Origin: Mycolicibacterium goodii
Lineage (GTDB): Bacteria > Actinomycetota > Actinomycetes > Mycobacteriales > Mycobacteriaceae
Length of the DNA stretch: 64,000 nt
Reading direction: 5' to 3'
Assembly: GCF_022370755.2 (NCBI RefSeq)
Contig: NZ_CP092364.2
Location: 186,001-250,000 of the forward strand
Made by a program: the position numbers and the translations under genes. How positions within the stretch are numbered: position 1 is the first letter of the stretch; every line of letters begins with the position of its first letter. The notes below the pieces were generated by a model, which ran no database searches, was not told where the DNA came from, and saw only the letters and a program-made list of their open reading frames with translations. Shown here piece by piece: positions 12,436-24,927 of the stretch.

Positions 12436-13131
12436 ATGCGGCCTCCCCGGCATTCGGCACTGCTGCAGCAGTTGGTCGCCGTGGCGCCGTCGCAGCAGGC
12501 CGTGCTCGACGAACTGCGCCGCGCCATCCTCGACGGAGGTGTGCCGCCAGGGACCCCGATCCCACTCGCCGAGGTGGCCGAGGTGTTCGGGGTCAGCCAG
12601 ATCCCGGTGCGTGAGGCGCTCAAGACGCTGATCGGGGAGGGCTTGGTAACGCACCGTCGCAACGCCGGTTACACGGTCGCGTTGCTCACCGCGCAGGAAC
12701 TGCGCGAAATGTACATCGTGCGTGAGACTTTGGAGTCCGCGTCGCTCATGGCCGCGGTGGCCAACGCGACCGACGCCGACCGCGACTCCGCGGTCGCGGC
12801 CAACGCGGTGCTCGAGCAGGCGATCGCCGCCGACGACGCCGCCACCTACCATCGGGAGAGTCGGCAGTTCCACGCTGCGCTGACAAGGCCGTCGCGCATG
12901 CACCGGTTGCTGCACATGCTCGAAGCGGCCTGGAACGTCACCGAACCGGTGCAGTCGATGGTGCACGTCAGCGCCGAGGACCGTACGCAACTGCATGCCG
13001 ACCACCGCGAGATGCTCGACGCGTTCCTGATGCGCGACGCTGAACGCCTGGTCGCGGCGTCCGAGGCGCATGCGGCACGGCTCAACTCCGTCATCGCGGT
13101 GCTGCCCACAGGTACCGGACTGCTGGCCTGA
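12436..13131 (+). CDS. GntR-family (FCD) transcriptional regulator
   Basis: A 231-residue regulator with a winged-helix domain (about 20-85: VLDELRRAILDGGVPPGTPIPLAEVAEVFGVSQIPVREALKTLIGEGLVTHRRNAGYTV) and an all-helical FCD effector domain (REMYIVRETLE... FHAAL...HREMLDAFL). FCD regulators usually sense small carboxylates. As the first gene of the allantoin island, facing the permease and racemase, it probably controls the island in response to allantoin or a breakdown product such as glyoxylate. That role is inference from position. Confidence 0.85.
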   Translation: MRPPRHSALLQQLVAVAPSQQAVLDELRRAILDGGVPPGTPIPLAEVAEVFGVSQIPVREALKTLIGEGLVTHRRNAGYTVALLTAQELREMYIVRETLESASLMAAVANATDADRDSAVAANAVLEQAIAADDAATYHRESRQFHAALTRPSRMHRLLHMLEAAWNVTEPVQSMVHVSAEDRTQLHADHREMLDAFLMRDAERLVAASEAHAARLNSVIAVLPTGTGLLA

Positions 13132-13205: not shown

Positions 13206-14768
13206 ATGACAGAAACCGCGGTACCCAACGCAAGCGGCGCATCGGCCGGCTCCGACGGGAACTTCCCCGTCGCTGCCGGCGACCTCGTCGAAGCGGCCGG
13301 TCACCCGATCGGCGGCGGCGAGATCAAGCCGGGTTACGACCCGAGGCTGACCAACGAGGACCTGGCCCCGCTGCGCAGGCAGAGTTGGGGCTCCTACAAC
13401 ATCTTCGCGTTTTGGATGTCCGATGTGCACAGCGTCGGTGGCTATGTCACTGCCGGCAGTCTGTTCGCATTGGGCCTCGCGAGCTGGCAGGTGCTGGTGG
13501 CCCTGTTGATCGGCATCACCATCGTCAACTTCTTCTGCAACCTCGTCGCCAAACCGAGCCAGCAGGCCGGTGTGCCGTATCCGGTGATCTGCCGCACCGT
13601 GTTCGGTGTGCTGGGCGCCAACATCCCGGCCATCATCCGTGGTCTGATCGCCGTGGCCTGGTACGGCATCCAGACGTTCCTGGCGTCGGCAGCCCTGGAC
13701 ATCGTGCTGGTCAAGCTGTTCCCGTCGCTGGCGCCGTACGCCGTGGTGGGTGACTACGGTTTCGCGGGTCTGTCGCTGCTGGGCTGGGGCTCGTTCCTGC
13801 TGCTGTGGGTGCTGCAGGCGTGCGTGTTCTGGCGGGGTATGGAATCGATCCGCAAGTTCATCGACTTCTGCGGCCCCGCGGTGTACGTGGTGATGTTCCT
13901 GCTGTGCGGTTACCTGATCTACAAGGCCGGCTGGGGCGCAATCGATCTGAATCTCGGTGACGTCACCTACACCGGCTGGTCGTCGATCCCGGTGATGCTC
14001 GGCGCCATCGCCCTTGTGGTGTCGTACTTCTCTGGGCCGATGCTCAACTTCGGTGACTTCTCGCGCTACGGCAAGACGTTCGCCGCGGTCAAGAAGGGCA
14101 ACTTTCTCGGTCTGCCGGTGAATTTCCTGGTGTTCTCGGTGCTGGTGGTGGTCACGGCTTCGCTGACGCTCCCGGTGTTCGGGGAGCTGATCACCGATCC
14201 GGTCGAGACCGTGGCCCGGATCGACAGCACGTTCGCGATCGTGCTTGGCGCCTTGACCTTCGCGATCGCGACGATCGGCATCAACATCGTCGCCAACTTC
14301 ATCTCGCCCGCGTTCGACTTCTCCAACGTCAGTCCCCAGCGGATCAGCTGGCGTGCCGGCGGCATGATCGCCGCGGTCGGCTCGGTGCTGATCACACCGT
14401 GGAACCTCTACAACAACCCCGAGGTCATCCACTACACGCTGGAGACACTCGGCGCGTTCATCGGTCCGCTGTTCGGTGTTCTGATCGCCGATTTCTACCT
14501 GGTGCGCAATCAGAAGGTTGTGGTGGATGATCTGTTCACCCTCGACGAATCCGGAAAGTACTGGTATACGAAGGGCTACAACAAGGTTGCGGTCGTCGCC
14601 ACCGTGGTGGGCGCGGTACTGGCTGTCATTCCGGTGCTGCTCGGCGGATCCGTCGTCGGCATGCACACGGCCGCCCAGTACAGCTGGTTCATCGGTTGCG
14701 GTGTCGCGTTCGGCCTGTACTACCTGCTGGCCAAGCGGGACGCGGTGGTCGCCGAGTCGCTCACGTGA
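13206..14768 (+). CDS. NCS1-family permease, probable allantoin/hydantoin transporter
   Basis: A 520-residue membrane protein with about 12 hydrophobic helices and the NCS1 N-terminal signature LTNEDLAPLRRQSWGSYNIFAFWMSDVHSVGGYVTAG. The block GVPYPVICRTVFGVLGANIPAIIRGLIAVAWYGIQTFL follows. NCS1 carriers move purines, pyrimidines, hydantoins or allantoin with H+ or Na+. Allantoin is the likely substrate, given allantoinase and allantoicase a few hundred bases away. The racemase starts on its stop codon (GTGA). Confidence 0.9.
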   Translation: MTETAVPNASGASAGSDGNFPVAAGDLVEAAGHPIGGGEIKPGYDPRLTNEDLAPLRRQSWGSYNIFAFWMSDVHSVGGYVTAGSLFALGLASWQVLVALLIGITIVNFFCNLVAKPSQQAGVPYPVICRTVFGVLGANIPAIIRGLIAVAWYGIQTFLASAALDIVLVKLFPSLAPYAVVGDYGFAGLSLLGWGSFLLLWVLQACVFWRGMESIRKFIDFCGPAVYVVMFLLCGYLIYKAGWGAIDLNLGDVTYTGWSSIPVMLGAIALVVSYFSGPMLNFGDFSRYGKTFAAVKKGNFLGLPVNFLVFSVLVVVTASLTLPVFGELITDPVETVARIDSTFAIVLGALTFAIATIGINIVANFISPAFDFSNVSPQRISWRAGGMIAAVGSVLITPWNLYNNPEVIHYTLETLGAFIGPLFGVLIADFYLVRNQKVVVDDLFTLDESGKYWYTKGYNKVAVVATVVGAVLAVIPVLLGGSVVGMHTAAQYSWFIGCGVAFGLYYLLAKRDAVVAESLT

Positions 14769-15559
14769 TCCGGATCTGGGTGGTCAACCCGAACACCACC
14801 GCATCGATGACCGAGGGGATCGGCCGCTGCGCCAGCGCGGTGGCCGGTCCCGGCACCGAGATCACCGCCGTCACCTCGCAGTTCGGCCCGCCGTCCATCG
14901 AGAGTCATTACGACGAGGCGATGAGCGTTCCCGGCTTGCTCGACGCGATCGCGCAGGGGGAGCGGGCCGGGGCAGGCGGGTACGTGATCGCGTGCTTCGG
15001 TGATCCCGGCCTGTACGCCGCGCGTGAGGTCGCGGCGGGTCCGGTGATCGGGATCGCCGAGGCCGCCATGCACACCGCGAGCCACCTGGGTCGGGGTTTC
15101 TCGGTGGTGACGACACTGGCCCGTACCACGGGTCGGGCCGCCGAACTCGCTGAACGCTATGGGATGCAGCGGTTCTGCCTCGGCATCCACGCGTGCGAAA
15201 TCCCGGTGCTCGACCTTGAGACGGACCCGACCGCGCAGAAGGTGGTCACCGAGGCGTGCCGCGAAGCCATCGAACGCGACGGGTCCGACGCGATCGTGCT
15301 GGGTTGTGCGGGCATGGCCGACATGTGCCGGGCAATCTCCGATGAGCTCGGCGTGCCGGTGGTCGACGGGGTCAGTGCGGCCACCCTCACAGTGCGGTCG
15401 CTCGTGACAATGGGGCTGCGCACCGGCAAGCGCGGCGAGTATGCGACACCGCCGCCCAAGCAGTACGTCGACCGGTGTCAGCTCGGATGCGCTTGCCGCC
15501 AGTGCTCGGCGATCTCGATGCGCCGAGCCAGCCACACCCGGTCATGTGATTGCACGTGA
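14765..15559 (+). CDS. Hydantoin/allantoin racemase (Asp/Glu racemase superfamily)
   Basis: A 264-residue HyuE/HpxA-type protein: N-terminal IRIWVVNPNTTASMT, first catalytic cysteine in VIACFGDPGL, second in VLGCAGMAD. Two-cysteine racemases interconvert hydantoin or allantoin enantiomers, so that a stereospecific allantoinase can use all of the substrate. The GTG start overlaps the permease stop. The family usually ends near PPPKQYVDR; here about 25 Cys/Arg-rich residues follow that are antisense to the 3-prime end of puuE, so the C-terminus looks like readthrough after loss of the original stop. Confidence 0.85.
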   Translation: MIRIWVVNPNTTASMTEGIGRCASAVAGPGTEITAVTSQFGPPSIESHYDEAMSVPGLLDAIAQGERAGAGGYVIACFGDPGLYAAREVAAGPVIGIAEAAMHTASHLGRGFSVVTTLARTTGRAAELAERYGMQRFCLGIHACEIPVLDLETDPTAQKVVTEACREAIERDGSDAIVLGCAGMADMCRAISDELGVPVVDGVSAATLTVRSLVTMGLRTGKRGEYATPPPKQYVDRCQLGCACRQCSAISMRRASHTRSCDCT

Positions 15560-16377
15560 TCGAGGAAGCGTTGCAGTGCAGCTGTTCTCGCGGGGCGCCC
15601 CACCAGCCGGCAGTGCAGGCCGACCGAGAGCATCTTGGGTGCGCCGCCAATCCCCTCGGCGTAGAGGACGTCGAACGCGTCACGCAGGTGTGCGAAGAAC
15701 TCGTCGCCGTTGGCGAACCCGGCCGGTGACGCGAACCGCATGTCGTTGGTGTCGAGCGTGTAGGGCACCACGAGATGATCGGATCCGTTGACATGTACCC
15801 AGTACGGCAGATCGTCGGCATAGGAATCGGAGTCGTAGACGAATCCCCCGTGCTCGACGACCAGCTCTCGCGTGTGCGGCGAATCCCGGCCCGTGTACCA
15901 GCCCAGCGGTGCGGAACCGGTGAGTTCTTCGAGGATTCGCACGGCCTCGGCCATGTGCTCACGCTCGGTGTCGCGGTCGGTCAGCTGATAGGACTTCCAC
16001 CGCAGCCCGTGGCACGCGATCTCGTGGCCCAACTCGGTGAACGCCGCGACCGCTTCGGGATTGCGCTGCATCGCACGTGCCACCGCGAAGATCGTCAGCG
16101 GTATGCCGCGCTGCTCGAAAACTCGTAGCACTCGCCACAATCCGGCGCGGGATCCGTACTCGTAGAGCGACTCCATGCTCATGTGCCGGTTGGGGAACGC
16201 CTCGGCGGGCGTCATCTCCGACAGGAATGTCTCCGACGCCGGATCGCCGTCCAGCACGCAGTTCTCCGCGCCCTCTTCGTAGTTGAGCACGAACTGCACG
16301 GCGATCGCAGCACCGCCGGGCCACTGCGGATCCGGGGGTGTGCGGCCGTAGCCGACCATGTCTCTCGGGTAGCTCAT
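15478..16377 (-). CDS. puuE: Allantoinase PuuE (polysaccharide-deacetylase fold)
   Basis: A 299-residue protein of the NodB/polysaccharide deacetylase superfamily, close to PuuE allantoinases: MSYPRDMVGYGRTPPDPQWPGGAAIAVQFVLNYEEGAENCVL, FGSR-type element YEYGSRAGLWRVLRVFE, and GHEIACHGLRW. It opens the hydantoin ring of (S)-allantoin to allantoate without the metal site of classical AllB. It overlaps the allantoicase stop (ATGA) and is last in the minus-strand operon. Its final 82 bases are convergent with, and overlapped by, the racemase gene. Confidence 0.9.
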   Translation of the reverse strand: MSYPRDMVGYGRTPPDPQWPGGAAIAVQFVLNYEEGAENCVLDGDPASETFLSEMTPAEAFPNRHMSMESLYEYGSRAGLWRVLRVFEQRGIPLTIFAVARAMQRNPEAVAAFTELGHEIACHGLRWKSYQLTDRDTEREHMAEAVRILEELTGSAPLGWYTGRDSPHTRELVVEHGGFVYDSDSYADDLPYWVHVNGSDHLVVPYTLDTNDMRFASPAGFANGDEFFAHLRDAFDVLYAEGIGGAPKMLSVGLHCRLVGRPARTAALQRFLDHVQSHDRVWLARRIEIAEHWRQAHPS

Positions 16378-17336
16378 GCCAGATCTCCGTACAGTCGCAG
16401 GCGCGCGAGACCGCCGTCTGGGTAGATGTCCAGACGTACCTCCGATACCACATCGGAATCCGCGACGAGAAAACGATGCCGCGTGTCGGGCAGCAGTGCT
16501 GTGCGCGGCAGCAGGTCCACCCAGTGCCCGTCGGCGCGCAGCCCGCTCAGCGCGGCCGCGCCCGGGCAGTTACCTACGAAGTAGGACGTGTCGACCTCGG
16601 CCAGGCGTACGCGTCCGGGACCCGCCAGGCGGATTCGTACCCAGTCGTTTCCGTCGTCGCGGCGGCGTGCGGTCTCCCAGCCGTCACCCATCACCTGCGC
16701 CAGGCCGGGGAAGATGAGGTTGTGCGGTGAGCTGTAGAAACGGTTGGAGCAGTCGAGCACCAGCGCACCGTTCTCCAGTGCCGCCAGATCCATCGGCCCG
16801 ATGCCGAGGAACCGTTTGTCGGGTCGGCCTTCGCCGTGCACACGTAGCCGCGCCACACCGCCGTCGGGAAAGATGTTGAGGCGCACATGGGTCCAACGGT
16901 CCTCGGAGTGCACCTCGAAGTTGTTGCGGGTGTCTCCGTAGACGCGGGATCGCTCGATGATCGACGTCCAGTTGGCATCGGTGGCCAGTTCCTCGGCGGC
17001 GGGGTAGCCGTCGACTTCCAAAGCGTCGACCGACACCTCGGGCGGGTAGTTGCCCTTGAACCACGCGGTGTCGACGACGATTCCGCGGATCACTCCGGGC
17101 ACACCGAGACGCACGATCGCAGAATCATGGCCGGGCTTCCGGCGCCTGCGGGTTTCCCAGCCGTCGTAGATCTGCCCCTTGTGCCCGAACGTCGCAGGCC
17201 GATACTGTGACGGCCCGGGGGAGATCAGGTTCTCCTTCTCGGCGAACGTCTCGTCATTGGCCCATACGACCGCGCCACCCAACGACCGCAGGGCCAAATC
17301 GGGCAGCCAGGTGAAATCCGGCGGGGTTTCGGTCAT
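16374..17336 (-). CDS. alc: Allantoicase
   Basis: A 320-residue allantoicase made of two repeated jelly-roll halves. The repeat is visible: YDGWETRRRRKPGHDSAIVRLG...VDTAWFKGNYPPEVSVDAL in the first half and GDGWETARRRDDGNDWVRIRLA...VDTSYFVGNCPGAAALSGL in the second. Each half ends in an IxPDGGxARLR block. It hydrolyses allantoate to ureidoglycolate and urea. ATG 17336 is used; a GTG directly before it is the alternative. It lies 13 bp after the DUF6986 stop and overlaps puuE. Confidence 0.92.
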   Translation of the reverse strand: MTETPPDFTWLPDLALRSLGGAVVWANDETFAEKENLISPGPSQYRPATFGHKGQIYDGWETRRRRKPGHDSAIVRLGVPGVIRGIVVDTAWFKGNYPPEVSVDALEVDGYPAAEELATDANWTSIIERSRVYGDTRNNFEVHSEDRWTHVRLNIFPDGGVARLRVHGEGRPDKRFLGIGPMDLAALENGALVLDCSNRFYSSPHNLIFPGLAQVMGDGWETARRRDDGNDWVRIRLAGPGRVRLAEVDTSYFVGNCPGAAALSGLRADGHWVDLLPRTALLPDTRHRFLVADSDVVSEVRLDIYPDGGLARLRLYGDLA

Positions 17337-17349
17337 CACGTGCTGCTCT

Positions 17350-18564
17350 CTAGGTCCGGTTCTTCAGGTTGTGCAGCACCTCGACGGTGGCGCGCGGTGC
17401 GACCGCCAGCACGTCCGCGGCCTCGAACGCGCCGCAGTCGAGCCCGCGCAGCACCACGGTGGCAAGGGCTTCTGCCGTGGCCGGTTCGTCGACGATCGCG
17501 CCGCCGCGGCGGTCGAGGTAGTTCTGCAACCGCGGGGCTGCGGCGCGCATCGCGGCGCGAAAGAACGTGAACGTAGCGAGCCAGCGCGTCACCAGGTGCC
17601 CGGGATGCATGTCCCACCCCTGGTAGAAGCCGCGTTCCAGCGATCGGGTGACCAGGCGGTGGTGACGCCGGATGGCCTGCGCCACCTGCTCTTCCGTGCC
17701 TATCGGGGACACCTGGGTGGAACCGTCGGCCACCCATACGCCGGTCTGCGCGGCCGCGGTCTGCATGACTGCCTTGGCGTGGTCGGCAATCGGATGGTCG
17801 AGGGACTGGTGCTGCGGGGCGATGCCGCAGGCCGCGCTGTAATCGTAGGTGCCGTAGTGCAATCCGGTGCACCGCTGATCGGAGCGGTGGATGGCCGCGG
17901 CCACGGTCGCGGTGCCGCCGGGGCCGAGCACGGCCTGCGGGCTCTCGATCTGCAATTCGAACCGCAGCGTCCGTTCGGGCAGGCCGTGTGCGGATTCGAG
18001 TGCCTCACACACCCACACTGCCGCGGTGACCTGCTCGGCGGCTCGCAGTTTGGGCACCGTGAACACGAAGCCGTCGGGGATTCCGCCGTCGAGCACGAGT
18101 TCCAGCGTGCGAAGCGCGCGGGTGCGTTCGGCCATCGTGAGGCCTTTGATGCGGATCCCCGAACTGTCCAGGCCGAGTGTGCGCAGCGTCGCGCCCGCGC
18201 GCAGTGCATGGGCGTCCTCGACCTCGTCGGCGCGCCGTCCGTAACCGTCCTCGAAATCGATCCGCAGGTCGGCAATCGGGGCGTCGGCGAGACGCTTGCG
18301 TGTCAACGTCAGTGCCGTGTTGTCGCTCAACTCAGCCAGAAGCTCGGCGTGTTGCTCGAGCAGTTCCAGCGCTGCGGCACCCCATTGCCGTGGGGTGCTC
18401 TCATCGGCGTCGGCGGCATTCACGTACACGGTGTGCACGGGTTGGACCGCGCGGCGGTCGCCGGGAAACCGTGCCGCCAACTCGGCGTCCACCTGCGTCA
18501 GCAGCTCATCGATGCGGGCGCGGACGTCCGGTGGAACGCGATGTGAGGGTGGAGGCACCCACAC
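17350..18564 (-). CDS. DUF6986 family aldolase-like protein in the allantoin operon
   Basis: About 404 residues. The family pattern QPVHTVYVNAAD, TPRQWGAAALELLEQH, LRIDFEDGYGRR, FELQIESPQAVLG and GLHYGTYDYSAACGI recalls CitE/HpcH-type (phosphoenolpyruvate/aldolase) barrels. The acidic DFEDGYG and the ELQIESP strand sit where those enzymes bind metal and substrate. It is the first gene of the operon with allantoicase and PuuE, so a role on ureidoglycolate or glyoxylate is plausible but unproved. The start is uncertain: GTG 18564 is the first usable start after the dapC stop, and the frame stays open further upstream inside dapC. Confidence 0.75.
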   Translation of the reverse strand: MWVPPPSHRVPPDVRARIDELLTQVDAELAARFPGDRRAVQPVHTVYVNAADADESTPRQWGAAALELLEQHAELLAELSDNTALTLTRKRLADAPIADLRIDFEDGYGRRADEVEDAHALRAGATLRTLGLDSSGIRIKGLTMAERTRALRTLELVLDGGIPDGFVFTVPKLRAAEQVTAAVWVCEALESAHGLPERTLRFELQIESPQAVLGPGGTATVAAAIHRSDQRCTGLHYGTYDYSAACGIAPQHQSLDHPIADHAKAVMQTAAAQTGVWVADGSTQVSPIGTEEQVAQAIRRHHRLVTRSLERGFYQGWDMHPGHLVTRWLATFTFFRAAMRAAAPRLQNYLDRRGGAIVDEPATAEALATVVLRGLDCGAFEAADVLAVAPRATVEVLHNLKNRT

Positions 18565-18586: not shown

Positions 18587-19759
18587 TCAGCACCTTCGCA
18601 GCACCTGGAGCCGGCGGATCGCCTCGTCGAGCGTGTCGTCGCGTTTGCAGAATGCGAAGCGCACCAAGTGATTCCACACATCGGCGTGTGGTGCGTCGGG
18701 ATCGCAGAACGCCGACATCGGGATCGCCGCGACACCGGCCCTGGTGGGCAGTTCGGCGCAGAACGCGCTGCTGTCGTCGTATCCCAGCGGACGGGGGTCG
18801 GCGCACAGGAAGTATGTGCCGCGGCTGTCGTGTACCTCGAACCCGATCTCGGCCAGTGCTGAGCCCAGCCGATCCCGCTTGGCCTGGAACGAATCGCGCA
18901 GATCCGCGACCCAGCCGTCCTCGTGGTTCAACGCGTGCGCGATCGCGGGCTGGAACGGCGCCCCGCCGACGTAGGTGAGGTACTGCTTGGCTGCGCGCAC
19001 CCCGGCGATCAATTCGGGCGCACCGCAAGCCCAGCCGATCTTCCAGCCGGTCGCGTTGAACATCTTGGCCGCGCTCGAGATGGTGACGGTGCGGTTGCGC
19101 ATACCGGGGTAGCCCGCGAGCGGGCGATGTTCGAACCCGTCGAACACCAGGGCTTCGTACACCTCGTCGGTGATCACCAGCAGGTCGTGCTCGACGGCCA
19201 GCGCCGCGACCTCGCGCAACTCGGCATCGGAGGCCACCGCGCCGGTGGGGTTGTGCGGCGAGTTGAGGATCAGTGCCTTGGTCTGCGGAGTCACGGCGGC
19301 GCGTAGCGCGTCGACGTCGATCGCGAACCCGCGCCCGTGAGGTACCAGGGGGACCGCGCGGCGTTCGCAGCCGGCCATGGCGATAACGGGGGAGTACGAG
19401 TCGTAGAACGGCTCGATCACCAGCACCTCGGAGCCGGGCTCGACGAGCCCGATCAACGACGCGGCGATGGCTTCGGTGGCGCCGACGGTGACGAGCACCT
19501 CGGTGTCCGGGTCGTACTCGATGCCGTAGTGACGCTTACGCTGCGCGGCGATCGCCTGCCGCAGCTCGGGTACCCCGAGCCCGGGCGGGTACTGGTTGAC
19601 CCCGTCGGCGATGGCGTTCTGCGCGACCTTGAGCATCTCGGCCGGGCCGTCCTCATCCGGGAACCCCTGACCCAGATTGACCGCGCCGAGGCGCGTGGCC
19701 AACGCCGACATCTCGGCGAAGATGGTCACGGCGAACGGCTGCAGTCTGCGGACGGTCAT
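18587..19759 (-). CDS. dapC: N-succinyldiaminopimelate aminotransferase DapC (class I PLP)
   Basis: A 390-residue fold-type I aminotransferase with NLGQGFPDEDGP, NSPHNPTG (PLP-phosphate region), ITDEVYEALVFDG and the Schiff-base lysine in SSAAKMFNATGWKIGW (about residue 230). It matches Rv0858c, assigned as the transaminase of the succinylase branch of diaminopimelate/lysine synthesis; related enzymes can act on other amino acids such as kynurenine or methionine. It is upstream of the allantoin minus-strand operon with a 22-bp gap, so some read-through is likely. Confidence 0.87.
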   Translation of the reverse strand: MTVRRLQPFAVTIFAEMSALATRLGAVNLGQGFPDEDGPAEMLKVAQNAIADGVNQYPPGLGVPELRQAIAAQRKRHYGIEYDPDTEVLVTVGATEAIAASLIGLVEPGSEVLVIEPFYDSYSPVIAMAGCERRAVPLVPHGRGFAIDVDALRAAVTPQTKALILNSPHNPTGAVASDAELREVAALAVEHDLLVITDEVYEALVFDGFEHRPLAGYPGMRNRTVTISSAAKMFNATGWKIGWACGAPELIAGVRAAKQYLTYVGGAPFQPAIAHALNHEDGWVADLRDSFQAKRDRLGSALAEIGFEVHDSRGTYFLCADPRPLGYDDSSAFCAELPTRAGVAAIPMSAFCDPDAPHADVWNHLVRFAFCKRDDTLDEAIRRLQVLRRC

Positions 19760-19782
19760 GCAGAAAGCCTATGTGCTTGTGG

Positions 19783-20274
19783 TCAGGCCAAGTCGCCGGG
19801 ACGGATGCGCAGCTTCGCCGCGATACGCGCGAGGGCTTGCTGCTCGGAGGCGGTGAGCGGGTCGAGGACGAACTCGCGCACCGCACGCATGTGGATGGGT
19901 GCGGCGACGACGACGAGGCGATATCCGGCGTCGGTGAGCTCGGCGAGCGTGTACCGGCCGTCGGTCGGATCGGGGGAGCGGGTCACCCAGCCGCGTTGCT
20001 CGAACCGCTTGACGACGTTCGAGAGCCGCGACAGTGAACCGTTGGCCAGAAACGCGAGCTCACTCATCCGGATGCGGCGGTCGGGCGCCTCGGAGATGTG
20101 GCTGAGGGTCAGGTATTCGAACAGGGTGAGGTCGACTTCCCGCAACGGCGCCTCGAGACGTCCCGGCATCAGCAGGATCAGGGAAACCAGACCCGTCCAC
20201 GCCTCTTTCTCGGCCGGGCTCAGCCACCGCGGTTCGTCAGAGGGCTCGGTGGGAGGCTCCTCGGCGCGGGTCAT
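19783..20274 (-). CDS. MarR-family transcriptional regulator
   Basis: A 163-residue winged-helix regulator. The DNA-binding core spans about residues 45-115 (DLTLFEYLTLSHISEAPDRRIRMSELAFLANGSLSRLSNVVKRFEQRGWVTRSPDPTDGRYTLAELTDAGY), with the DxRxx wing as DPTDGRYT. It is divergent from the RidA-like gene, and two palindromic operators lie between the start codons. It probably represses itself and the RidA gene and releases DNA when a small ligand binds. The ligand is unknown. Confidence 0.88.
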   Translation of the reverse strand: MTRAEEPPTEPSDEPRWLSPAEKEAWTGLVSLILLMPGRLEAPLREVDLTLFEYLTLSHISEAPDRRIRMSELAFLANGSLSRLSNVVKRFEQRGWVTRSPDPTDGRYTLAELTDAGYRLVVVAAPIHMRAVREFVLDPLTASEQQALARIAAKLRIRPGDLA

Positions 20275-20299
20275 ATCGGCACTTTAGTGCGGCGGAATA

Positions 20300-20315
20300 A
20301 CTTCAAGCGTGAAGT
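20300..20315. promoter_or_regulatory. MarR operator 1 (palindrome)
   Basis: ACTTCAAGCGTGAAGT: six-base arms ACTTCA/TGAAGT around AGCG, 26 bases upstream of the MarR start. It is the exact reverse complement of operator 2. Confidence 0.7.
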
Positions 20316-20332
20316 CATTATGGGTGATGTTC

Positions 20333-20348
20333 ACTTCACGCTTGAAGT
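20333..20348. promoter_or_regulatory. MarR operator 2 (palindrome)
   Basis: ACTTCACGCTTGAAGT: the same arms as operator 1 with the inner four bases inverted, so the two sites are mirror copies with centres 33 bp apart, about three helical turns on one DNA face. It ends one base before an ATG in frame with the RidA-like gene. Confidence 0.7.
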
Positions 20349-20367
20349 AATGACGAAAGGTGATCCG

Positions 20368-20790
20368 TTGAGTCAGATCGAGTTCTTCATGACGCCCGGC
20401 TACGGCCCCAAGATGCGGGCGAACCTGCACTACAACCAGGCGCTGCGCATCGGCGACCGCGTCGAGATCTCCGGGCAGGGCGGCTGGGACGACAACCTCC
20501 GCTTCCCGGCCGACCTCGAGGACGAGATCGTGCGCGCCTTCGACAACGTCGAGCGCACGCTCGCCACGGCAGGAGCGAGCTGGGGTGACGTTGTCTCGGT
20601 GAACTCCTACCATGTGCCCACCGCGGCGGACACTATCGGCGACGAGCACACGCGCGTCATGGTCGAGCAGTTCCGCAAGCGCATGGGCGACCGCGCCCCC
20701 ATCTGGACCCAGATCGGGGTCCCCGCGCTCGGCGCGCCGGGCATGCGCGTCGAGATCCGCGTGACGGCTGTGCTCGGCGCGAACGCCTGA
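20368..20790 (+). CDS. RidA-family protein (enamine/imine deaminase-like)
   Basis: A 140-residue YjgF/YER057c/UK114-type protein: ALRIGDRVEISGQGGWDD, a helix IVRAFDNVERTLATAGASWGDVVSVNSY, and C-terminal ALGAPGMRVEIRVTAV with the Arg-x-Glu typical of the active cleft. RidA proteins hydrolyse reactive enamines or related adducts. The TTG start is preferred because GAAAGG lies 7 bases upstream; an in-frame ATG at 20350 has no such site and abuts operator 2. Divergent from, and probably repressed by, the MarR protein. Confidence 0.82.
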   Translation: MSQIEFFMTPGYGPKMRANLHYNQALRIGDRVEISGQGGWDDNLRFPADLEDEIVRAFDNVERTLATAGASWGDVVSVNSYHVPTAADTIGDEHTRVMVEQFRKRMGDRAPIWTQIGVPALGAPGMRVEIRVTAVLGANA

Positions 20791-20799
20791 ACTCCCGCT

Positions 20800-20847
20800 C
20801 GTAACGTCACGGCGGAAATCCGGCCGATTTTCCGCCGTGGCGTTACG
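20800..20847. terminator. 19-bp hairpin after the RidA-like gene
   Basis: Arms 20800-20818 and 20829-20847 pair with a single G-T wobble around a 10-base loop, starting 9 bases after the RidA stop. It also faces the 3-prime end of the UreF-like remnant on the other strand. Confidence 0.65.
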
Positions 20848-20858
20848 AACGGCGCGCG

Positions 20859-21143
20859 TCAGGTTGCGAACAGCCTTGCCGTGCGCAGCTGGATGCGCTC
20901 ACTCTGCAGCGGCCCCAGCCGGCCCAGGCACACAGCGGCGCCGAGCATCGCGGCCACCAACGAGCGCAGTGAGCCGAGCACCGCCATCTCTACCGGTATT
21001 CCCAACTCGGCCTGCACCACAGCGTCCACCACGGCGGCATGCCTGGCCGAACTGCCTTCGAGTACCGCACTCAAATACGGGGGTTCGATGCCGATGTCAC
21101 ACGCGGTTGCAGCGTGGCTTCGCGGTGAGCGGCCGGGAGTCAC
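20859..21143 (-). pseudogene. UreF-like C-terminal remnant
   Basis: An open frame of 94 codons. Its last ~60 residues (SARHAAVVDAVVQAELGIP, then AAMLGAAVCLGRLGPLQSERIQ) resemble the end of urease accessory protein UreF, where families show ARHPV-type, a helical LV-AA-R stretch and LGP-x-xGQR. The first ~30 codons do not look like UreF, and the frame closes upstream at about 21226, so no full-length gene exists. The rest of the 20791-21214 gap holds only the hairpin at 20800. The call is by eye and could be a chance ORF. Confidence 0.4.
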
Positions 21144-21214
21144 TGACGGCCCAAAAACCGCCGTGGCGTGACGCGCGACGTGTGAAGTGGCCAGGTCGTG
21201 GCAACACCACTGGC

Positions 21215-21403
21215 ATGGCTACCTATCGCGTGCTCAATCCAAAAGGCGACGTCGTCGACACCAAGGACATCGAAAGCGCCGACGATGCCCATGCGTGGTT
21301 CGTCGACCAGCGTGCGGACAACACGGAGCTGGGCTGGCGCATGGAGGTCCAGCACGACGGCGAGTGGCATTTCTTCGACGACACCGAGGGCACCTCGAAG
21401 TAG
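21215..21403 (+). CDS. Small conserved acidic protein, function unknown
   Basis: A 62-residue protein (MATYRVLNPKGDVVDTKDIESADDAHAWFVDQ... GWRMEVQHDGEWHFFDDTEG). The pattern of short strands with a central helix, and WRMEV-HDGEWHFFDDT, looks like a compact folded domain with no signal peptide or membrane segment. It precedes fadA-fadB on the same strand but 130 bp away, so an operon is uncertain. Not assigned to a named family. Confidence 0.6.
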   Translation: MATYRVLNPKGDVVDTKDIESADDAHAWFVDQRADNTELGWRMEVQHDGEWHFFDDTEGTSK

Positions 21404-21535
21404 CCGAAGAAGACCGCATCTCCAGTGTCCCAACCAAGCGGTTGGGTGAGGCTGCTAGGCTCGCGCGCAGAGGACAACACCTCCACGCGGGTTCATGCCC
21501 GTCAACTCAACCCTTGACAGGACCTGGAGATCTAC

Positions 21536-22747
21536 ATGTCCGAAGAAGCCTTCATCTACGAGGCTATTCGTACGCCACGCGGCAAGCAGCGTGGCGGAGC
21601 CCTCAACGAGATCAAGCCCGTCAACCTGGTCGTCGGCCTGATCGACGAGATCCGCAGCCGGTATCCCGATCTGGACGAGAACCTGATCAGCGATCTGGTT
21701 TTGGGCGTGGTGTCCCCGGTCGGTGACCAGGGCGGCGACATCGCCCGCACCGCGACACTGGTCGCGGGCCTGCCGGAGACCACCGGTGGCGTGCAGCTCA
21801 ATCGCTTCTGCGCGTCCGGACTCGAGGCCGTCAACATCGCCGCGCAGAAGGTACGTTCGGGCTGGGACGACCTGGTACTCGCCGGCGGCGTGGAGTCGAT
21901 GAGCCGTGTCCCGATGGGCTCTGACGGCGGTGCCTGGGCCGCCGATCCGGAGACCAACTACCGCATCGGCTTCGTGCCTCAGGGCATCGGCGCCGACCTG
22001 ATCGCCACCATCGAGGGCTTCTCCCGCGAGGACGTCGACGCCTACGCCGCGCGTTCGCAGGAGCGCGCCGCCGCGGCCTGGTCCGGCGGCTACTTCGCCA
22101 AGTCCGTGGTGCCGGTGCGCGACCAGAACGGCCTGGTCGTGCTGGATCACGACGAGCACATGCGTCCGGGCACCACCGTGGAGAGCCTGGCCAAGCTCAA
22201 GCCCGCGTTCGAGGGCATCGGCGCGATGGGCGGCTTCGACGACGTGGCGCTGCAGAAGTACCACTTCGTCGAGAAGATCAACCACGTCCACACCGGCGGC
22301 AACAGCTCGGGCATCGTGGACGGCGCCGCGCTGGTGCTGATCGGCTCGGAAAGCGCGGGGAAGGCGGCCGGTTTGACCCCGCGGGCGCGCGTCGTCGCCA
22401 CCGCCACCAGCGGTGCCGATCCGGTCATCATGCTCACCGGCCCGACGCCCGCCACGCGCAAGGTGCTCGACCGCGCCGGTCTGACGGTGGATGACATCGA
22501 TCTGTTCGAGCTCAATGAGGCGTTCGCCTCGGTGGTGCTGAAGTTCCAGAAGGACCTTGGCATCCCCGACGAGAAGCTCAACGTCAACGGCGGCGCCATC
22601 GCGATGGGCCACCCGCTGGGTGCCACGGGCGCCATGATCACCGGAACCATGGTCGACGAGCTCGAGCGTCGCGGCGCTCGGCGTGCGCTGATCACGCTGT
22701 GCGTGGGCGGCGGCATGGGCGTGGCCACCATCATCGAACGAGTCTGA
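21536..22747 (+). CDS. fadA: Acetyl-CoA acetyltransferase (thiolase) FadA
   Basis: A 403-residue thiolase with the nucleophilic cysteine in [11 protein letters not shown] (about residue 92), the catalytic His in [15 protein letters not shown] and the second Cys in LCVGGGMG. It cleaves 3-ketoacyl-CoA in the last step of fatty-acid beta-oxidation. It corresponds to Rv0859 and pairs with fadB 17 bp downstream to form the soluble trifunctional complex (FadA2B2). A GGACCTGGAG purine stretch precedes the start. Confidence 0.95.
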
Positions 22748-22764
22748 GAGGGTATCGAACAGCT

Positions 22765-24927
22765 ATGGCTGAGAACACCATCAAGTGGGACAAGGATGCC
22801 GACGGCATCGTCACGCTGACGCTCGACGACCCGACCGGCTCGGCCAACGTGATGAACGAGCACTACAAGGAATCCATGCACAACGCCGTGGAACGCCTTG
22901 CCGCAGAGAAGGATTCAATCACCGGTGTCGTCATCACCAGCGCGAAGAAGACATTCTTCGCCGGTGGTGACCTCAAGGGCATGATGAAGGTCGGCCCGGA
23001 GAACGCGGCCGAGTCCTTCGCCGAGGTCGAGTTCATCAAGGCTGACCTGCGCAAGCTCGAGACCCTGGGCGTGCCCGTGGTGGCCGCCATCAACGGCGCC
23101 GCGCTCGGCGGCGGCCTGGAGATCGCACTGGCGTGCCATCACCGCATCGCCGCCGACGTCAAGGGCGTGGTGATCGGTCTGCCCGAGGTCACCCTCGGCC
23201 TGCTGCCCGGCGGCGGCGGTGTCGCCCGCACCGTCCGGATGTTCGGCATCCAGAAGGCCTTCATGGAGGTGCTCTCGCAGGGCACCCGGTTCAAGCCGGG
23301 CAAGGCCCTGGAAGTCGGGCTTGTGGATCAGCTCGTCTCGTCGGTGGATGAGCTCGTGCCCGCCGCCAAGGCTTGGATCACAGAAGAGCTCAAGGCCAAC
23401 CCCGAGACGGTTGCCGTTCAGCCGTGGGATCGGAAGGGCTACAAGATGCCCGGCGGCACGCCGAGCAGCCCCGGCCTGGCCGGCATCCTCCCGTCGTTCC
23501 CGGCTCTGCTGCGCAAGCAGCTCAAGGGTGCGCCGATGCCTGCGCCGCGGGCCATCCTGGCCGCGGCGGTCGAGGGTGCGCAGGTCGACTTCGACACCGC
23601 CACCCGTATCGAGAGCCGCTACTTCGTCAGCCTCGTCACCGGCCAGACCGCCAAGAACATGATCCAGGCGTTCTTCCTTGACATGCAGACCATCAACGGT
23701 GGTGGTTCGCGGCCCGACGGCATCGCCAAGCAGGAGATCAAGAAGGTCGGTGTCCTTGGTGCGGGAATGATGGGCGCCGGTATCGCCTACGTGTCGGCCA
23801 AGGCCGGCTTCGAGGTCGTGCTCAAGGACGTCACGCTGGAGGCGGCCGAGCGGGGCAAGGGCTACTCCGAGAAGATCGAAGCCAAGGCGCTCGAGCGTGG
23901 CAGGACCACCAAGGAAAAGTCCGACGCGCTGCTGGCCCGGATCACCCCGACCGCCGACGCGGCCGACCTCAAGGGTGTGGACTTCGTCATCGAGGCCGTC
24001 TTCGAGAATCAGGAACTCAAGCACAAGGTGTTTCAGGAGATCGAGGACATCGTCGAGCCCAACGCGATCCTCGGCTCGAACACCTCCACGCTGCCGATCA
24101 CCGGTCTGGCGACCGGTGTGAAGCGCCAGGAGGACTTCATCGGCATCCACTTCTTCTCACCGGTCGACAAGATGCCGCTGGTGGAGATCATCAAGGGCGA
24201 GAAGACCTCCGACGAGGCGCTGGCCCGGGTGTTCGACTACACGCTGGCCATCGGCAAGACGCCGATCGTGGTCAACGACAGCCGCGGCTTCTTCACCAGC
24301 CGCGTCATCGGCACCTTCGTCAACGAAGCCCTGGCGATGCTCGGTGAGGGCGTGCCCGCGGCCAGCATCGAGCAGGCGGGTTCGCAGGCCGGCTACCCGG
24401 CTCCGCCGCTGCAGCTGTCCGACGAGCTCAACCTCGAGCTGATGCAGAAGATCGCGACCGAGACCCGCAAGGCCGCCGAGGCCACGGGCGCCACCTATGA
24501 GCCGCATCCGGCCGAAGCGGTGGTGAACAAGATGATCGAGATCGGTCGTCCGTCGCGTCTGAAGGGCGCCGGCTTCTACGAATATGTCGACGGCAAGCGC
24601 GTCGGCCTGTGGCCGGGTCTGGCCGACACGTTCGGCTCGGGCAAGGTCGACATCCCCCTGCAGGACATGATCGACCGCATGCTGTTCGCCGAGGCGCTGG
24701 AGACCCAGAAGTGCATCGACGAAGGTGTGCTGACATCCACCGCTGACGCCAACATCGGCTCGATCATGGGTATCGGCTTCCCGCCGTACACCGGCGGCAG
24801 TGCGCAGTTCATCGTGGGCTACCAGGGTGAGCTGGGTGTCGGCAAGGAGGCTTTCGTGGCCCGCGCCAAGCAGCTGGCCGAGCGCTACGGCGAGCGGTTC
24901 AACCCGCCTGCCTCGCTGGAGTCCTGA
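22765..24927 (+). CDS. fadB: Fatty-acid oxidation alpha subunit FadB (enoyl-CoA hydratase / 3-hydroxyacyl-CoA dehydrogenase)
   Basis: A 720-residue bifunctional protein, the same length as Rv0860. The hydratase domain (1 to about 300) has the oxyanion loop [13 protein letters not shown] and glutamates in [37 protein letters not shown]. The dehydrogenase domain (from about 325) has NAD loop [21 protein letters not shown] and the catalytic His in [15 protein letters not shown]. The C-terminal half completes the dehydrogenase fold. It forms the TFP complex with FadA. Its 3-prime end is followed by a 22-bp hairpin. Confidence 0.95.

Follow-up and report, generated by a model that had tools for sequence, protein, structure and literature searches.

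A DUF6986 protein as the probable ureidoglycolate lyase of allantoin breakdown in Actinomycetota

Allantoin breakdown yields ureidoglycolate. In M. smegmatis under nitrogen limitation, allantoin is reported to give ureidoglycolate and urea, and the available part of that paper traces only the urea further (PMC4617892). The authors of a study on the actinobacterium Rubrobacter xylanophilus found none of the allantoin-to-glyoxylate enzymes that they list, as far as its accessible text goes (PMC4016543), and a "ureidoglycolate lyase (ugl)" is listed in ocean microbes in the portion available of a third report (PMC11698098). A structural parallel to the protein considered here is malyl-CoA lyase (CoA, coenzyme A), in which a Glu and an Asp bind Mg, a Glu-Asp pair holds Mg-bound water and a further Asp orients an Arg (PMC3832036). 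We analyzed 64,000 nucleotides of the Mycolicibacterium goodii genome (contig NZ_CP092364.2, positions 186,001 to 250,000 of the forward strand; hereafter the window, numbered from its first letter), in which a gene encoding a DUF6986 protein lies within a cluster of allantoin genes. The DUF6986 protein is probably a ureidoglycolate lyase unrelated to the known lyase AllA and derived from the superfamily of malyl-CoA lyases, CitE-like proteins and malate synthases.

The DUF6986 open reading frame (ORF) extends on the minus strand from a GTG start at 18564 to a TAG stop at 17350–17352, and its product passes the Pfam cut-off for PF22484 (DUF6986; E 2e-151, 504.8 bits versus 27) over residues 22–402, which confirms the full-length DUF6986 gene that an earlier note on this DNA had placed at 17350–18564. 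The note had pointed to an acidic motif, D-F-E-D-G-Y-G (residues 103–109), as suited to a metal-dependent lyase, a reading that was right in spirit, given that the D-x-E-D part of the motif matches the residues that in malyl-CoA lyase hold Mg-bound water and orient the Arg (PMC3832036). It had further stated that the gene is the first of its operon, which is uncertain because the end of an upstream aminotransferase gene on the same strand is 22 bp away from the start of DUF6986, and that the island contains no enzyme for ureidoglycolate or glyoxylate, which holds as far as tested: uricase, allB, AllE, malate synthase A and urease alpha, each represented by a single tblastn query, all had no match in the window. 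An allA homologue elsewhere in the genome, which by the note's own account would count against its candidate, was not found when the whole host genome (6.74 Mb, one contig) was searched with PF04115, nor did AllD (TIGR03175) have a match at E ≤ 0.001 in the same genome, and both were set aside. A single copy of malate synthase is encoded approximately 2 Mb from DUF6986. Among the families searched in the host genome, there is no consumer of ureidoglycolate, the product of allantoicase.

The co-occurrence of DUF6986 with the allantoicase gene (alc) is very strong. In a sample of 296 genomes of the class, the host genome included, DUF6986, counted at E ≤ 1e-40, is present in 106, allantoicase in 94, the ureidoglycine aminohydrolase AllE (TIGR03214) in 18 and AllA in four, of which one match is strong and the other three (G288, G378 and G468, all DUF6986 genomes) are weak, with E values from 2e-7 to 2e-5. 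Allantoicase and AllE never occur in one genome, so 112 of the 296 genomes make ureidoglycolate by either route; DUF6986 is encoded in 105 of these 112 (87 of the 94 with allantoicase and all 18 with AllE) versus one of the 184 others, and that sole exception, G422, is 93% complete and split into 850 contigs. AllD exceeded its cut-off in none of 59 genomes tested, 12 of which contain weaker matches. Outside the class, allantoicase is present in all 13 genomes with a strong DUF6986 match, spanning six families, versus none of 67 controls, which were taken from 82 genomes with only weak or partial matches, a comparison that leaves aside the 183 genomes of that sample in which DUF6986 had no match at all; AllE was found in none of the 80. 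One genome, G013, with DUF6986 fragments only, at a contig edge, was scored as DUF6986-negative and has no allantoicase. In a rapidly built tree of 93 DUF6986 proteins, the protein from the window groups with those from the Mycobacterium loci L039, L040 and L044, and members associated with AllE fall among those associated with allantoicase. On this tree, two changes of the allantoicase/AllE label are required, one of them forced by the starred branches. DUF6986 thus appears to have stayed in place through at least one change of the upstream enzyme; repeated swapping is not claimed.

Gene neighbourhoods were compared in 80 loci from genome contigs and five from plasmids, DUF6986 being called in 81 of the 85; the remaining four (L049, L050, L063 and L072) were excluded from the counts, for which clusters were named from one or two members that had been scanned, from plasmid annotation or from the genes of the window. 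Allantoicase adjoins DUF6986 on the same strand within 150 bp in 18 of the 81 loci, and malate synthase A does so, the gap ranging from -4 to 138 bp, in eight; among the matches listed, malate synthase lies less than 10 kb from DUF6986 in 8 of 90 genomes. A glyoxylate carboligase cluster (TIGR01504, over the cut-off in the scanned member) is found in five of the 81 loci, tartronate semialdehyde reductase (TIGR01505, over the cut-off) in seven and a glycerate kinase cluster in four. Malate synthase A or glyoxylate carboligase is present in 12 of the 81 loci and, as the former is found in some and the latter in others, two glyoxylate sinks exchange beside a constant DUF6986. The AllE gene lies less than 10 kb from DUF6986 in 17 of the 18 class genomes that have both and overlaps it by 4 bp on a Tsukamurella plasmid, and a Propionibacteriaceae locus (L101) has the order malate synthase, DUF6986, AllE, with uricase and allB close by. 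In loci from Gordonia, Williamsia, Rhodococcus and Rhodococcoides (L034, L045, L046, L047 and L064), DUF6986 is followed by urease genes. The clearest arrangement is that of two genomes of approximately 1.5 Mb (L133 and L134; the genes were called as longest ORFs, and their starts are approximate), in which malate synthase, the allantoinase AllB (over its cut-off in both), allantoicase and DUF6986 form one overlapping row, followed in L133 by malic enzyme. The matches to DUF6986, allantoicase and malate synthase obtained for these genomes in the class sample coincide with the positions of the three genes. The sole chemical step from allantoin to malate that is without an enzyme in this row is the conversion of ureidoglycolate to glyoxylate and urea.

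Malate synthase is encoded in 193 of the 296 class genomes, including 105 of the 106 with DUF6986 (the exception is G373). It is also present in 88 of the 190 genomes that lack DUF6986, so that DUF6986 does not track glyoxylate use in general. A role as a replacement malate synthase was set aside because all these DUF6986 genomes but one already have that enzyme, and a role as a general glyoxylate enzyme because of the 88 malate synthase genomes that lack DUF6986. The earlier note had left the choice between the ureidoglycolate and the glyoxylate step; its candidate is supported and can be narrowed to the former, because of the near-universal malate synthase in DUF6986 genomes and the sink genes in 12 of the 81 loci.

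The predicted model of the DUF6986 protein combines a TIM barrel with a C-terminal lid, as is characteristic of the superfamily. Used alone as a query against the sequences of solved structures, the protein gave no match, and the alignment as a query matched malyl-CoA lyases; the latter search also returned two lipid-A-disaccharide synthases and three weaker matches, which were taken as chance. In the fold search with the model, two deposited structures, PDB 3qqw (Ralstonia Reut_B4148, "putative lyase") and 3r4i (Burkholderia Bxe_B2899, "citrate lyase"), rank near malyl-CoA lyase. Residues D103, E105, D106, G107, E207 and D241 are invariant in all 64 aligned relatives, and D103, E105 and D106 are also kept in all 26 members of a more divergent set; E207 and D241 align with the Mg ligands of malyl-CoA lyase. 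Also invariant are R138, which aligns with the Arg of a "VRVN" stretch in the paralogue L002, and D359, which the end points of the structurally aligned ranges, as distinct from a residue-level superposition, place within approximately one residue of Asp299 of malyl-CoA lyase. H44, Q205 and T239 were considered as candidates for a urea pocket and dropped, being invariant among the 64 sequences and variable among the 26.

From gene context, co-occurrence, predicted fold and conservation we infer that DUF6986 cleaves (S)-ureidoglycolate, supplied by allantoicase or by ureidoglycine aminohydrolase, to glyoxylate and urea; glyoxylate would then be used by malate synthase or glyoxylate carboligase, and urea by urease or urea amidolyase. 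By analogy with malyl-CoA lyase, E207 and D241 would hold Mg2+ and E105 and D106 its water molecules, the carboxylate and hydroxyl groups of ureidoglycolate would chelate the metal, and R138, positioned by D103, may deprotonate or polarize the substrate hydroxyl. The C-N bond would then break, glyoxylate leaving bound to Mg2+ and D359 of the lid protonating the departing urea, a role that we infer from the one proposed for Asp299 of malyl-CoA lyase, protonation of the acetyl-CoA enolate. Ureidoglycolate, HO-CH(COO-)-NH-CO-NH2, has NH in place of CH2 and NH2 in place of SCoA when compared with malyl-CoA, HO-CH(COO-)-CH2-CO-SCoA; urea would stand where the acetyl group of acetyl-CoA stands. By the Cahn-Ingold-Prelog rules, (S)-ureidoglycolate is spatially arranged as (R)-malate, and the face of glyoxylate used would therefore be opposite to that used by (S)-malyl-CoA lyase, which is a real uncertainty. 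It also seems likely that DUF6986 is the usual end of allantoin breakdown in Actinomycetota, a C-C lyase in which urea has replaced the acetyl-CoA partner and which feeds malate synthase or glyoxylate carboligase.

Several observations weigh against a ureidoglycolate lyase. The class sample contains seven allantoicase genomes without DUF6986, five of them in the genus of the window, where allantoicase is encoded in 6 of 18 sampled genomes and DUF6986 only in the host's own. Two of these five, at loci L123 and L124, have the same cluster cleanly without DUF6986 and with no convincing remnant of it, with 23 bp between the aminotransferase and the start of allantoicase and with urease-like genes further upstream, so the ureidoglycolate step can go otherwise or spontaneously. 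Ureidoglycolate also decays to glyoxylate and urea without an enzyme, as stated in the available part of one paper (PMC3527362), and an enzyme therefore need not be essential. Allantoicase lies less than 10 kb from DUF6986 in only 40 of the 87 class genomes with both, and in Streptomyces loci DUF6986 is found apart from it, beside electron transfer flavoprotein (ETF) genes. The association in the class sample (Fisher p = 2e-70) ignores the kinship of the genomes and so overstates their independence. To our knowledge, known members of the superfamily cleave C-C and not C-N bonds. Finally, on the Gordonia polyisoprenivorans plasmid p174 (L034, 9531–15883), the start of DUF6986 is overlapped by a thioesterase gene (4HBT; recorded as PaaI family), urease genes follow DUF6986, and malate synthase G is encoded approximately 8.7 kb from there; relatives of this thioesterase precede DUF6986 in L047 and L064, and such a neighbour could hint at CoA chemistry.

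The two remaining allantoicase genomes without DUF6986 belong to other genera. One, G530, contains a 33-residue fragment resembling DUF6986 (51% identity, E 2e-4; L131) and, because the fragment sits at the end of a 3.3-kb contig, the absence looks like an assembly gap; the other is G310. Some neighbours of allantoicase in DUF6986-less genomes were scanned for a replacement lyase (ten proteins and another ten, nine of them shared), and no convincing stand-in was found among them; they are generic proteins, namely TetR regulators, alpha/beta hydrolases, an aminotransferase, metallo-beta-lactamase and isochorismatase folds, a 2-oxoglutarate dioxygenase, TerC, DUF222/HNH and proteins without a match. 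Two genomes of the window's genus contain a second, divergent allantoin cluster (L126, 7402–18987; L128, 723–12302), with an allantoicase 42–43% identical to its nearest relative, a racemase, allB, transport-like genes and proteins of the metallo-beta-lactamase and isochorismatase folds, one of which might use ureidoglycolate. In Streptomyces loci such as L091, L105 and L107 (at approximately 10 kb), genes for ETF alpha and beta, LacI and ROK proteins are found beside DUF6986, which lies outside the allantoin cluster.

An alternative is a DUF6986 that consumes glyoxylate, condensing it in the manner of malyl-CoA lyase or malate synthase with acetyl-CoA, propionyl-CoA, pyruvate or some other acceptor and so draining the end product of allantoin breakdown. 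The predicted fold and the catalytic residues are shared with glyoxylate-condensing enzymes, and the thioesterase on p174 could complete a malyl-CoA route. Such a role is nonetheless unlikely, as malate synthase is already present in 105 of the 106 DUF6986 genomes as well as in 88 of the 190 without DUF6986, a sink gene accompanies DUF6986 in 12 of the 81 loci, and the ureidoglycolate step would be left empty. An enzyme that acts on ureidoglycolate in another manner, for example by transferring its glyoxylate unit to acetyl-CoA or another acceptor without release of free glyoxylate, would fit the same co-occurrence and the C-C bond formation to glyoxylate of which the superfamily is capable; the malate synthase in the operon or carboligase in the locus suggests that free glyoxylate is made, and we regard the transfer as quite unlikely.

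The five genomes of the window's genus that manage without DUF6986, together with the spontaneous decay of ureidoglycolate, would agree with an enzyme that uses a different ureide (ureidoglycine, allantoate or the wrong enantiomer of ureidoglycolate) or repairs a by-product. Against this, ureidoglycolate is the intermediate expected to be common to the allantoicase and AllE routes, allantoicase makes no ureidoglycine, and DUF6986 has been retained in the operon of genomes of 1.5 Mb, a sign that its step is a main one; we consider another ureide highly improbable. That the association merely reflects shared ancestry among allantoin-using actinobacteria, DUF6986 being a bystander or non-catalytic, could be argued from the relatedness of the sampled genomes and from the Streptomyces gene outside the allantoin cluster. 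Beyond the class, the same association recurs across six families (13 of 13 versus 0 of 67), the allantoicase/AllE context changes at least once in the DUF6986 tree while DUF6986 stays, and the active-site residues are invariant, so a bystander is extremely improbable. Cleavage of ureidoglycolate to glyoxylate and urea is the reading that we prefer.

The features of the window that bear on this proposal are collected in Table 1, with the two clusters of the same genus for comparison. The allantoicase gene starts 10 bp past the stop codon of DUF6986 on the same strand and is overlapped by that of the PuuE-type allantoinase by 4 bp. The NCS1 permease scores 279 bits to the allantoin permease PRK11375, below the cut-off of 620, and the gene order around the GntR/FCD regulator is repeated in L039, L040 and L044. 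On the other side, positions 18587–24927 contain the aminotransferase and, further on, a thiolase-like ORF (21536–22747) and a FadB-like ORF (22699–24927). This segment resembles what we take to be a conserved mycobacterial dapC-fadA-fadB neighbourhood, and this suggests that the allantoin genes were inserted beside it.

Table 1. Features of the window around DUF6986, and two related clusters without it
Feature	Position	Strand	Basis or remarks
DUF6986 protein, proposed Mg-dependent (S)-ureidoglycolate lyase	17350..18564	minus	404 aa, GTG start
Codons of residues 101-107 (R-I-D-F-E-D-G), containing the D-x-E-D motif	18244..18264	minus	Invariance of D103, E105 and D106
Allantoicase (allantoate to ureidoglycolate and urea)	16374..17339	minus	TIGR02961, 385 bits, cut-off 278
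PuuE-type allantoinase	15478..16377	minus	TIGR03212, 533 bits, cut-off 425
Asp/Glu/hydantoin racemase family, probable allantoin racemase	14696..15559	plus	PF01177, E 6e-60; start at 14696 or further in
NCS1 permease, probable allantoin uptake	13206..14768	plus	PF02133, E 2e-90
GntR/FCD regulator, probable local regulator	12436..13131	plus	PF00392 and PF07729
Pyridoxal phosphate-dependent aminotransferase, probably a neighbouring core gene	18587..19759	minus	PRK07777, 704 bits, cut-off 553; 22-bp gap to DUF6986
Cluster in L123	7495-11247		GntR, NCS1, racemase, PuuE, allantoicase, aminotransferase; DUF6986 absent
Cluster in L124	7786-11544		GntR, NCS1, racemase, PuuE, allantoicase, aminotransferase; DUF6986 absent

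If the proposal is correct, DUF6986 would be a new family, unrelated to AllA, for a known reaction, and would close the last open step in the recovery of nitrogen from purines and allantoin in many actinobacteria, from Streptomyces to streamlined genomes of 1.5 Mb. It would also assign a function to a DUF family, show how the scaffold of a C-C lyase can come to cleave C-N bonds, and allow the annotation of DUF6986 proteins to be corrected at once; in the five plasmid records, the gene is labelled "aldolase/citrate lyase family protein" in three and has no feature at its place in two. The literature searched, which leaves most subscription journals outside so that prior reports are possible, contains no mention of "DUF6986" and no item that combines "allantoicase", "malate synthase" and "Streptomyces". 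Among the matches listed, no title or abstract start names a ureidoglycolate lyase role for the family.

In comparison with known systems, the reaction proposed for DUF6986, (S)-ureidoglycolate to glyoxylate and urea (EC 4.3.2.3), is that of the AllA/DAL3-type ureidoglycolate lyases (PF04115). AllA is a small, unrelated family with a profile of 162 positions, and DUF6986 has no match to it up to E 1. The ureidoglycolate dehydrogenase AllD also acts on ureidoglycolate, according to the accessible part of the source (PMC3527362), but is an oxidoreductase of another family. Malate synthases A and G (PF01274) share with DUF6986 the superfamily fold and the glyoxylate/Mg site, but DUF6986 scores only 11.1 bits to their profile, versus a cut-off of 26.4. 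The HpcH/HpaI and CitE-like proteins (PF03328) belong to the same superfamily, hhalign giving probabilities of 96.9 and 94.6 to two paralogues in the host genome; DUF6986, at 23.9 bits, remains just below the cut-off of 25 and has a Pfam family of its own. A further likeness is to malyl-CoA lyase (Rhodobacter sphaeroides, 4L9Y; Methylobacterium, 5UGR), which has the same TIM barrel and C-terminal lid. Its Mg ligands E141 and D168 correspond to E207 and D241 of DUF6986, Arg76 to R138 and, by motif, D42-x-E44-D45 to D103-x-E105-D106, with Asp299 near D359; DUF6986 would hold glyoxylate in the same place. The two differ in overall sequence (17% identity over 289 aligned residues; 16.2 bits to the malyl-CoA lyase equivalog NF041626 of NCBIfam, versus a cut-off of 500), in the invariant residues that DUF6986 has of its own (for example H236, Q253, H257, D280, H301 and Q315-G-W-D318) and in the partner of glyoxylate, acetyl-CoA in the one and, as proposed, urea in the other. 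DUF6986 resembles malyl-CoA lyase in fold and site, yet is its own Pfam family within the superfamily.
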